Source of the DNA: a virus | IMG/VR virus record: IMGVR_UViG_3300044998_000075 | Coordinates: 1 to 32,145 of that record | Length of the DNA stretch: 32,145 nucleotides | Strand: one strand, 5' to 3' | Part shown: positions 1,241 to 4,374 of the stretch, piece by piece | Position numbering within the stretch: the stretch's first letter is position 1 | How the letters are laid out: the number at the start of each line of letters is the position of its first letter | Program-made: the position numbers and the translations under genes | Notes under the pieces: model-generated | What the model saw: only the letters and a program-made list of their open reading frames with translations | What the model was told of the DNA's origin: nothing | Database searches by the model: none

Positions 1241-2658
1241 GGTCCTGGGACATCGAGACTGGCACCCGCGCGAAGCTGAAGCGCAAGGCCAGCCCGTTCA
1301 ACGCCGGCAACCACGTCGTGGTGCACGCATGGAAGGACCTGGCGCAGCCCAAGGTCCATGTGCGGTACTTCGGCCGGACGCCTCCGAAGCCGGGCTGGCT
1401 GGGCGAGGTCCTGGAGGGCACCAAGCTGCTCGCCGGGTTCAACATCAAGTTCGACCTGCTACACGCCCTGCAGTGCCCGGTGAACCTGGGGCTGTGGATG
1501 GAGTGGGTCGCAAACGGCGGCCAAGTGTGGGACTGCCAGCTGGCCGAGTACCTGCTCAACGGCATGGGCCGCGCAGACCACATGCTGTCGATGGACGAGG
1601 TCGCGCCGCGCTACGGCGGCAGCCTCAAGGTGGACGAGGTCAAGGCCCTGTGGGCGGCCGGAGTCCAGACCGAGGACATCGACCCGGGCCTGCTGGAGCG
1701 CTACCTGGCCGGCGGCCCCGACGAGGACGGGGTCGAGCAGCCCGGCGACATCGGCAACACCGAGGCCATCGCCCTGGCGCAGATCAGGCGGGCCCGCGAA
1801 GCCGGGCAGCTGAAGAGCATCATGCTCAACATGGGCGCGCTCCTGTTCAGCGTCGAGGCCGAGCGCAACGGCATGTACGTGGACATGGAGCTGGGCCTCA
1901 AGCTGGCCGAGGAGCTGCAGGCCAGGGTCCAGGAGCTGAGCGCGAAGCTCAACAGCTTCCTGCCCGAGCTGCCTGAAGGCTTCGAGTTCAAGTGGTCCAG
2001 CCGTCACCACAAGTCGGCGCTGATCTTCGGCGGCACGATCCACTACCCGCGCCGGGAATGGCAACTGGCGGACGGTTCGTGGACGTTCGAGGCCCCTCCG
2101 CCGGCCGACATGGTCGGCTCCAGCCTGCACCCGGAGTTCGCCTACGCCCAGAAGGACGAGACGCACTACGTCTTGGAGGACGGCACCACGGCCGAGTGCT
2201 CGTGGTGGGAGCACTGCCGGGACACGGAGTGGCAGGGCAACCCGCCGCCCGGCAAAGACCGGGCCGTGTTCAAGGGCGGGAAGAACGCCGGCGAGCCGAA
2301 GACGAAGAAGGTCAAGGCCCCGGACTACTCCAAGCCCAAGAGCCGCATGGGCACCGGGAAGTTCACGTTCCCGGGCTTCACACGCCCGAAGCCTGAGTGG
2401 GAAACGTCCGAGCCTGGCGTGTACTCCGTGAACGACGAGATCATCGAGGAGCTGGGCTCACGCAACATCCCGTTCCTCAACGCCCTGGCCGAACTGCAGG
2501 CGACGACCAAGGACCTCGGCACGTACTTCATCGTGCGCGACGAATCCGGCGGCGCCAAGGGGATGCTGTCCCTGGTGGACACCGACGGTGTGGTGCACCA
2601 CAAGATCAACCACAACAGCACGGTCACCGGCCGCCTGAGCAGCAGCGACCCGAACCTT
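1237..2658 (+). CDS. DNA polymerase, family A (T7 gp5-like), exon 1
   Basis: Exon 1 encodes residues 1-474 of a predicted 813-aa spliced polymerase. The start is a GTG overlapping the preceding stop. The 3'-5' proofreading motifs are visible: Exo I as Asp5-Ile-Glu7, the same positions as in T7 gp5, and Exo II as NIKFD with Asp73. The fingers/palm entrance follows, ending in RLSSSDPNL, the first half of the family A PNLQNxP template-binding motif. Translation of unspliced RNA would stop at the TGA (2659-2661) that forms the first three intron bases. Joining codon CTT (2656-2658) to CAG (3355-3357) restores PNL-QNLP in frame. The polymerase copies the phage genome with the neighbouring helicase and SSB. 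The annotation is secure; the exact splice site is inferred from the protein motif and the P1/P10 pairings. Confidence 0.93.
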
Positions 2659-3354
2659 TGAACTGGAGGTTCTAAAACTCCGTGAACTCAGGGGACACCC
2701 AGACCGGGCAATCCTGAGCCAAAGCCACCATATCTCCCGCGGAGGGACACGATGGACATCAAGCATTACTACGAGAACACCGACCTTACGCTGGCGCAGA
2801 TCGCAGCCAGAGTGGGCACCTCCTACAAAGCGGTGTTCAGGTATGTCGCCGACCACTACAGCAAGGCGCACCGTCAGGCGCGCAAGAGGAACAGTTACCG
2901 GCTCTCGAAGCTGGGCGACTTGAATCCGATGCATGGCAAGCTGCGCGAGCAGCACCACAATTTCATCGGTACTGTGGCGGACGGCAAGGGGTATCTGATG
3001 ACTCTCAAGCCCGAGTGGTACACCGGGCGCAAGGGCAGCAAGCATGTGTTTGTGCATCACCTCGTGATGTGCGAGCACGAGGGCCTGTCTGAGATTCCCG
3101 CAGGATGGTGCGTGCACCACTGCGACGAGAACCCCCACAACAACGACATCTCGAATCTCGTACTGATGACTTTGGGCGAGCACGCAGCACTGCACTCGTG
3201 GCTAGGCGCAACGACTATCTCGAAAGAGAGTACAGCCAAGTGGCTGGAAGCGCGGAGGGCAGCCAAGGCTGCCATGATATAGTCTCCTCTGCATGGGAAC
3301 ATGCAGCAGCCCATTAGGGCGGGCACAGCGTAACGACCTGTGCTGAAGATACAG
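2659..3354 (+). ncRNA. Group I self-splicing intron in the DNA polymerase gene
   Basis: This 696-base intron lies inside the PNL|QNLP codons. Exon 1 ends in U and the intron ends in G, as group I introns require. Pairings visible by eye: P1 2652-2658 with 2666-2672, closing with U-G at the splice site; P10 2663-2665 with exon bases 3355-3357; P3 2678-2682 with 3253-3257; P4 2687-2692 with 2713-2718; P5 2698-2700 with 2706-2708; P7 3213-3218 with 3279-3284; a P7.1-like stem 3218-3221/3226-3229 with a GAAA loop; a P7.2-like stem 3233-3237/3242-3246; P8 3258-3263/3268-3273; P9 3289-3295/3300-3306 with a GGAA loop; and two more 3' hairpins (3309-3320 and 3323-3343). The GGGCAATCCTGAGCC core (2706-2720) is a classic group I signature. 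The extra P7.1/P7.2 stems suggest subgroup IA, as in T4 and SPO1 phage introns. Confidence 0.93.
2752..3282 (+). CDS. Intron-encoded HNH homing endonuclease
   Basis: This 176-aa protein has a helix-turn-helix-like N-terminus (residues 12-34, LTLAQIAARVGTSYKAVFRY). A C-terminal HNH nuclease domain shows His122-His123, Asn127/Asn130-Asn131 and Asn135 within a VHHCDENPHNND...NL pattern, then His144 and His148. GGAGGG at 2741-2746 precedes the ATG. Such enzymes cut intron-less polymerase alleles of related phages so that repair copies the intron in. Its lower GC and different codon use compared with the polymerase fit a mobile insert. The reading frame lies in the P6 loop of the intron, but its last 23 or so codons (from 3211) run through P7, P3, P8 and into the second P7 strand, and its TAG stop (3280-3282) sits inside that strand. 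Translation and RNA folding therefore compete for the same bases. Confidence 0.9.
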   Translation: MDIKHYYENTDLTLAQIAARVGTSYKAVFRYVADHYSKAHRQARKRNSYRLSKLGDLNPMHGKLREQHHNFIGTVADGKGYLMTLKPEWYTGRKGSKHVFVHHLVMCEHEGLSEIPAGWCVHHCDENPHNNDISNLVLMTLGEHAALHSWLGATTISKESTAKWLEARRAAKAAMI

Positions 3355-4374
3355 CAGAACCTGCCGAAAGGCAGCAAGTCCGACGTGAAGCGCGTCTTCG
3401 TGTCCCGCTTCGGGCCTGATGGCAAGATCGTCCAGTCGGACTACAAGTCCCTGGAGGTCTACGTCCAGGCGATCCTGACGGAGTGCGCGCAGCTGGTCGC
3501 CGACTTGAAGGCCGGCCTGGACATGCACGTCAAGCGCCTGGCCCTGAAGGAGGGGATGCCGTACGACGAGGTCCTGAAGCTCTGCAAGGGGGACGGGGAC
3601 ACGCCTCCGGACCCCGAGTGGGACAAGAAGCGGACGGCAGCGAAGGTCATCTCGTTCCAGCGGGCCTATGGCGCCGGCGCTCCCAAGATCGCGGCCAGCA
3701 CTGGCCTGCCGGTCGAGGACATCGCCGCCATGATCCTTGCGGAAGACGAGGAGTACCCGGAGATCGAGGAGTACTACCGGGCTCTGACCCGCACCCTGGA
3801 GGAGAACCGCAGGCCGACCGGCCGCGCGATACCGCACCCGGAGGCCAAGGGGGTCATGTGCCACCTGGGCGAATCCACCTTCCGCACGCCGGACGGCAAG
3901 CTCTACAAGTACCAGGAGCAGCCGGTTCCCGAGTTCGCGCTGAAGCGCGGCAAGACGAGCGGGTTCTCGCCGACCGAGATCAAGAACTACGTCGTGCAGG
4001 GCACGGGCGGCGAGTGGATGAAGGCGGCCATGTGGCTGCTGGTCCGGGCCTTCTACGCTCGCAAGAACTTCGACGGCAAGGCCTTGCTGGTCAACACCGT
4101 GCACGATTCTGCGATGGCCGACGTGCACCCGGACGTGGCCTTCGAGGCAGCTGCCCTGATCCATGCTTGCATGGAGGCCGCTTCCGACCTGATGGCCTGG
4201 CACTTCAGCTGGGACATCGCCCTCCCTGTGCCCTCGGACACGACCTGGGGGCAGTCCATGATCGAAGAACTCCCAATCCCCGGCATCAACTCCCGGGCCG
4301 CTGAGCTGCGCGCGGAACTGCGCGCCACGTACATGAAGGGCTTCGTGCCCAACTACCTGAAGGAAACCCAATGA
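3355..4374 (+). CDS. DNA polymerase, family A (T7 gp5-like), exon 2
   Basis: Exon 2 encodes residues 475-813 of the spliced enzyme: QNLP, then motif A (SDYKSLE, Asp503), motif B on the O helix (Arg567, Lys571, Phe575, Tyr579-Gly580) and motif C (VHDS, His724-Asp725-Ser726). Aligned to T7 gp5, Phe575 sits where T7 has Tyr526, and Ser726 replaces the usual Glu of HDE. All main catalytic Asp and Lys residues are present, so the enzyme should be active. A GTG codon at 3340 could be mistaken for a start, but it and the following four codons are intron. There is no ribosome site there and the protein would lack the whole exonuclease domain. The stop overlaps the ATG of the SSB-like gene (ATGA). Confidence 0.93.
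   Translation, partial: QNLPKGSKSDVKRVFVSRFGPDGKIVQSDYKSLEVYVQAILTECAQLVADLKAGLDMHVKRLALKEGMPYDEVLKLCKGDGDTPPDPEWDKKRTAAKVISFQRAYGAGAPKIAASTGLPVEDIAAMILAEDEEYPEIEEYYRALTRTLEENRRPTGRAIPHPEAKGVMCHLGESTFRTPDGKLYKYQEQPVPEFALKRGKTSGFSPTEIKNYVVQGTGGEWMKAAMWLLVRAFYARKNFDGKALLVNTVHDSAMADVHPDVAFEAAALIHACMEAASDLMAWHFSWDIALPVPSDTTWGQSMIEELPIPGINSRAAELRAELRATYMKGFVPNYLKETQ

Follow-up and report, generated by a model that had tools for sequence, protein, structure and literature searches.

Group I introns that interrupt phage DNA polymerase genes form a described class. In Xanthomonas phage phiL7, such an intron occupies E. coli Pol I site 676 (Lee et al. 2009, AEM 75:7828, as cited in PMC3428280), and in Pf-WMP3, site 674; splicing of the Pf-WMP3 intron has been observed in vitro as well as in vivo, and its endonuclease, I-PfoP3I, nicks near the insertion site (PMC3428280). 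In the T4 td intron, a hairpin over the ribosome-binding site limits the translation of I-TevI, and loss of this hairpin harms splicing because ribosomes run into the core (reviews PMC2988022, PMC3073962). Here, we analyzed a 32-kb virus record (IMG/VR record IMGVR_UViG_3300044998_000075; 32,145 nucleotides, hereafter the window), in which a family A DNA polymerase gene is interrupted by an insert at positions 2659–3354. We put at about 0.97 the probability that this insert is an IA2-like group I intron, predicted to be self-splicing and to carry a gene for an active homing endonuclease. It is clearly a new copy of the published family, inserted at the same site as in phiL7. A preliminary description of this DNA had proposed such an intron and had rightly called the class known.

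The element and the two parts of the interrupted gene are as follows:
1237–2658, + strand: 5' exon of the family A DNA polymerase gene, ending in ...SSSDPNL; PF00476 with an E value of 3e-7 and 30.1 bits, below the cut-off of 34.3; PHROG 9556 with an E value of 1.9e-128
2659–3354, + strand: group I intron of 696 nucleotides; begins with UGA, a stop codon in frame with exon 1; final base G3354 (terminal omega-G)
3355–4374 including the stop codon, + strand: DNA polymerase gene, 3' exon, first residues QNLPKGSK...; PF00476 with an E value of 1.1e-20; 99.0% identity to an intron-minus sibling from 3355 on

The exact ends of the intron were revealed by this sibling (L026, IMG/VR 3300044994_000060), a natural empty site whose flanking DNA matches that of the window at 98% identity and which lacks exactly these 696 nucleotides and has an unbroken polymerase gene. 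When the exons were joined at 2658/3355, they aligned to the L026 gene over 2442 nucleotides with 98.65% identity and without a gap; this junction restores PNL-QNLP. Among relatives with an intron at the same site, the homology of the polymerase exons likewise ends at base 2658. The sole difference at the junction is the final exon base (−1), which is T in the window and G in L026; the change is synonymous (CTT/CTG, both Leu), and T (U) is the base that the terminal U·G pair of P1 requires at this position. Another intron-bearing contig (L009/L025, 3300044961_000001) is 99.94% identical to the window over the gene and the intron. Thus, the intron is present or absent at one site between near-identical genomes, which on sequence grounds marks it as a putatively mobile (homing) intron. 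The high-GC setting noted earlier holds for the surroundings, with 67% and 65% GC in the exons, whereas the intron itself is less GC-rich (58%).

We then inspected positions 2652–3357 base by base for the helices of a group I core, all of which lie on the + strand:
2652–2672, + strand: P1, GAACCUU 2652–2658 with GAGGUUC 2666–2672, terminal pair U2658·G2666; the 3' strand serves as internal guide sequence
2663–2665, + strand: P10 guide strand CUG, pairing with CAG 3355–3357 of the 3' exon over 3 base pairs
2678–2682, + strand: P3 5' strand CUCCG, partner 3253–3257
3253–3257, + strand: P3 3' strand CGGAG, partner 2678–2682; covaries
2687–2692/2713–2718, + strand: P4, CUCAGG/CCUGAG, assigned by sequence, with little variation
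2698–2700/2706–2708, + strand: P5; both sides change in L015, L022 and L039 (by inspection)
2719–2726, + strand: P6/P6a 5' strands, approximate; CC 2719–2720 with GG 3205–3206 and GCC 2724–2726 with GGC 3200–3202, assigned by comparison with how Rfam aligns L024 and L063
3213–3218, + strand: P7 5' strand GACUAU, pairing with 3279–3284; invariant in 50 introns
3279–3284, + strand: P7 3' strand AUAGUC, which includes the UAG stop of the HNH open reading frame (ORF); lies within a partial match to Rfam RF00028 at 3274–3304
3219–3228, + strand: P7.1, CUC-GAAA-GAG, a hairpin that forms in the computed fold
3230–3232, + strand: linker GUA between P7.1 and P7.2
3233–3246, + strand: P7.2, CAGCC/GGCUG, a hairpin that forms in the computed fold and covaries
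3258–3263/3268–3273, + strand: P8 hairpin, present in the fold; relatives differ in sequence yet stay self-complementary (by inspection)
3289–3306, + strand: P9, 7 base pairs with a GGAA (GNRA) tetraloop, present in the fold and in the Rfam partial match
3309–3312/3317–3320, + strand: P9.1, present in the fold
3322–3328/3338–3344, + strand: P9.2, present in the fold

The helices of the preliminary description, from P1 with its U-G pair through P10, P3, P4, P5, P7, P7.1/P7.2 and P8 to the GNRA-capped P9, were each found where it had placed them. A conserved core of P3, P4, P6, P7 and P8, with P3 and P7 formed across the intron, together with U2658·G2666 and the terminal G3354, comprises the hallmarks by which the sequence is classified as group I. 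Introns of subgroup IA2 have P7.1 and P7.2 between P7 and P3', joined by G-U-A (PMC3428280). The window carries CUC-GAAA-GAG, A-GUA and CAGCC/GGCUG in this interval, which by sequence assigns it to IA2. When 3195–3354 was folded alone, P7.1, P7.2, P8, P9, P9.1 and P9.2 all formed (z = −3.0).

The core was further evaluated in 50 distinct related introns selected by core motifs; this selection predetermines P7, the greater part of P4 and the 5' base (G) of the last P3 pair, whereas P7.2 and the remaining four P3 pairs could vary freely. The arms of P3, about 570 nucleotides apart in the window, were paired at every one of 250 positions, with 25 different arm pairs, while random re-pairing reached at most 94 of 125 and was never as good in 2000 trials, in a shuffle that ignores the kinship of the sequences. 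For P7.2, 248 of 250 pairs were kept with 10 distinct versions (0 of 2000 shuffles, again ignoring kinship). P4 was paired at 278 of 288 positions and hardly varied; since neither it nor the near-invariant P7 provides covariation evidence either way, both were set aside. At the splice sites, all 11 site-676 introns tested form a P1 of 6–7 base pairs with a terminal U·G, G-C being replaced by C-G at −7 through changes in both strands, and all 11 form a P10 of 3–7 base pairs that changes in step with the 3' exon (CAG/CUG, CAAA/UUUG). Together with the empty site in L026 and the Rfam matches of ORF-less relatives, the covariation of P3 and P7.2 bears out the group I intron proposed earlier, with its ends and its core.

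These results bear directly on a different reading of the locus, namely a polymerase made of two separate subunits, whose genes flank a free-standing HNH gene and are not joined by splicing. An HNH gene between two polymerase genes is indeed annotated in phiL7, L13.2, BF25/12, phiB1_1 and others, and a GTG at 3340 could start the second half. However, this arrangement leaves unexplained both the covariation of the core and the exact P1 and P10 at the exon ends, it would place the break within the conserved RLSSSDPNLQN motif, and it is at odds with the unbroken gene of L026. Moreover, the records of PS3 and PhAPEC7 describe this layout as one joined gene. We therefore consider a split polymerase very improbable. 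Among the loci compared, the public records of L001, L002, L003, L005, L033, L036 and L037 have the HNH gene flanked by two genes annotated as DNA polymerase. There, the split annotation is probably an artefact, as the halves look like exons of one gene. This points to unrecognised introns as the source of the split "DNA polymerase" annotations in many phage records.

The preliminary description, sound in its anatomy of the intron, had missed the gene inside it, the overlap of this gene with the core and the hairpin in front of it. The gene is as follows:
2752–3282, + strand: gene for a predicted HNH homing endonuclease, 176 codons; stop UAG 3280–3282 within the P7 3' strand; PF13392 with an E value of 6e-9; PHROG 7545 with an E value of 1e-49

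It makes up about three quarters of the insert. Its product contains the motif VHH.D....NN...NL.......H, which is invariant in eight relatives and includes the conserved His and Asn; by this motif, it is a predicted enzyme of the intron-type homing endonucleases. The ORF runs through P6', P7, P7.1, P7.2, P3' and P8 and ends in P7'. The position of its stop is identical in L001, L002, L011, L014, L015, L017 and L022; elsewhere it lies between −7 and +54 nucleotides from the start of P7', earlier only in L040 and L041. Outside the core, the ratio of nonsynonymous to synonymous substitution rates (dN/dS) was 0.07–0.19 in the five comparisons where it was defined; in L001, synonymous sites in codons 1–146 were saturated and gave no ratio. 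These ratios place the ORF under purifying selection across its family. Measured against the window, synonymous divergence fell from 1.5–3 in codons 1–146 to 0.12–0.25 in codons 152–176, which overlap the core, a rough estimate from only 25 codons; such a drop is as expected if the RNA constrains these bases.

Just 5' of the start codon, we found a further conserved structure:
2735–2747, + strand: hairpin UCCC-GCGGA-GGGA, covering the Shine-Dalgarno sequence GGAGG 2741–2745 of the HNH gene

A 4-base-pair Watson-Crick stem over the Shine-Dalgarno sequence was present in 20 of 21 distinct relatives, in nine distinct versions; after shuffling of the bases upstream of the Shine-Dalgarno sequence, the stem appeared in a mean of 2.3 and at most 7 of the 21. 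By analogy with td/I-TevI, the hairpin may mask the ribosome-binding site of the HNH gene and so limit its translation. The text of the Pf-WMP3 paper on the ribosome-binding site (PMC3428280) does not mention such a hairpin, which other papers may report. Hairpin and overlap are features of the sequence; tentatively, the unusually deep overlap of ORF and core in this family could make translation and splicing of one RNA mutually exclusive, with the covarying hairpin as the switch.

The selection on the ORF is also relevant to the question of whether the intron has decayed, with splicing lost and the polymerase inactive in this genome. Such a state would be compatible with a splicing ability that is deduced for this copy and with a source that is a 32-kb virus contig. 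Against it, all core helices are intact, including the pairs that vary among relatives, the HNH ORF is conserved as a coding sequence in its family, and the polymerase exons are open and under purifying selection (dN/dS of 0.11 versus L026). The second contig, L009/L025, is nearly identical over both gene and intron, and we regard decay as having very little probability. A free-standing HNH insertion or an intein-like protein element without an intron, which the large share of the HNH gene in the insert might suggest, is practically negligible, as the insert starts with an in-frame UGA and thus cannot be an intein, and the ORF-less L004 (272 nucleotides) and L024 keep the RNA core.

Our results on the group I intron allow a course of events to be proposed. 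The intron would be transcribed with the polymerase gene, and P3-P8 and P4-P6 would form the core of the folded RNA. P7 would bind an external guanosine, which would attack after U2658, the U of the P1 U·G pair, and the released 5' exon, aligned by P10, would then attack after G3354. The joined exons would read ...DPNL-QNLP... and restore the polymerase message, with an expected ligated junction of ...CCGAACCTT-CAGAACCTG... The HNH enzyme, produced in small amounts, might nick or cut the intron-minus polymerase genes of co-infecting phages near the site, and the intron would be copied in by repair or recombination, perhaps together with flanking sequence. The T at −1 in the window, as opposed to G in L026, fits such copying of flanks. 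Two features would probably limit translation into the core, namely the in-frame UGA with which the intron opens and the hairpin that covers the ribosome-binding site of the endonuclease gene. In this scheme, the anatomy, the exact ends, the covariation and the coding constraint on the ORF are observed in the sequences; splicing, cleavage and homing are what we infer from the relatives of the intron.

Several observations weigh against this interpretation. Splicing of this copy is itself predicted from its sequence and its relatives. The search with a group I model, which the preliminary description had expected to settle the matter, gave the whole window no match to Rfam at the gathering score, and its match to Intron_gpI (RF00028) reached 18.4 bits against a cut-off of 50 and spanned only P7'-P9. 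Relatives with the same core and no insert or a short one (L004, L006, L024 and L063) score 64–79 bits, and the low score of the window is probably due to the ORF of about 530 nucleotides inserted in P6. When solved structures were searched by sequence with the HNH protein, no relative was found, only a meaningless match with an E value of 0.08. A co-conversion tract around the site was not convincing, as mismatches to L026 were only slightly denser within 63 bases downstream (positions 15, 33 and 63). Last, the T at −1 is not confined to intron-bearing alleles, as the intronless L045 also has it.

Insertion after the Leu of DPNL/QN corresponds to E. coli Pol I site 676. The location within a conserved motif, emphasized earlier, is correct, but it is not special to this copy, as phiL7 carries its intron at the same site according to the citation in PMC3428280. 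In the retrieved loci, site 676 holds an intron with a related HNH gene in the window, L001, L002 (phiL7), L003, L005, L011, L014, L015, L017 and L034; in L019–L023, L033, L035–L041 and L044, such introns lie, by inspection, about 6 nucleotides upstream. In a tree of the HNH proteins, the 674 and 676 site classes cluster; the tree has three changes, a tentative number given its poorly supported deep branches, and a single origin for the site classes is not clearly recovered. The core itself is common, as 237 phage records contain DNA similar to positions 3200–3320.

Related cores also occur in other settings. Xanthomonas phage Valrath (L004, 2720–2991) has a 272-nucleotide intron at the site of the window, without the HNH gene and with the RNA core kept. 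In Xanthomonas phage CP1 (L006, about 2980–3300), the same core lies at a third polymerase site (KVFSFQR/AYGAG), without a relative of the HNH gene, and in Pseudomonas phage Drael01 (L007, about 2960–3790), it contains another ORF and interrupts a gene annotated as RNA polymerase just 5' of MTYVYGA. A short ORF-less copy in L024 (about 2400–2660) lies in a gene that, from its translation only, resembles ribonucleotide reductase (PYQFC/NLTEV). In four IMG/VR contigs (L010–L013), use of the standard 5' splice site would leave A rather than G as the final intron base. Splicing one base upstream (CCT/T) would give a final G and still encode PNLQN, and the guide sequence GGGG, in place of GAGG elsewhere, would permit a U·G pair at the shifted site; in sequence, this resembles a splice register displaced by one base. 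Vibrio phage MJW (L042, 2399–2974), with a 48%-identical HNH gene near the polymerase motif and none of the searched core motifs, was excluded from the family. Directly upstream of the polymerase gene of the window, at 665–1240, lies an ORF matching PHROG 12607, nucleoside deoxyribosyltransferase.

As near-identical phages of which only one has the intron, the window and L026 form a natural pair suited to direct tests of homing, splicing cost and co-conversion. The Rfam result also indicates that the model can miss such introns when an ORF is present.

Finally, we compared the locus with the known systems. The introns of SPO1, SP82 and Bastille (I-HmuI, I-HmuII, I-BasI) and of phiI and W31 (I-TslI), compared by description only, likewise combine an IA2 intron and an HNH gene in phage family A polymerase genes (PMC3428280), but occupy sites 674 and 881. 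The N4-like phages PhAPEC5 and PhAPEC7 have the same core and a 64%-identical HNH protein, with introns that lie 6 nucleotides upstream and are annotated in database records. Pf-WMP3 shares the IA2 subgroup and an HNH enzyme with the C-terminal motif (I-PfoP3I, 48% identical), whose ORF also begins in P6a and passes P7 (PMC3428280); it differs in its site, 674, 6 nucleotides upstream, and in an ORF that ends before P8. T4 td resembles the window in an ORF in P6 that reaches the core, in a hairpin-masked ribosome-binding site and in a stop near the 5' splice site, which is usual (PMC2988022, PMC3073962). However, td is a different gene, and its ORF overlaps the core by about the last 20 nucleotides, compared with about 80 in the window, through P8 into P7. 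I-TevI is a GIY-YIG enzyme, while the window encodes an HNH protein; the overlap and the conserved hairpin would carry the principle of td/I-TevI over to DNA polymerase introns of the HNH type. The closest system is the phiL7 intron with its endonuclease gp45, which shares site 676, the core, an HNH protein 68% identical over its full length and an ORF stop in P7. It differs in belonging to another phage, in its length (682 versus 696 nucleotides), in starting with UAA rather than UGA and in the sequences of P8 and P9.1/P9.2, while for the window a natural intron-minus sibling is known. Thus, what is new here is this copy, its near-identical intron-minus sibling and the family-wide hairpin combined with a deep overlap of ORF and core.

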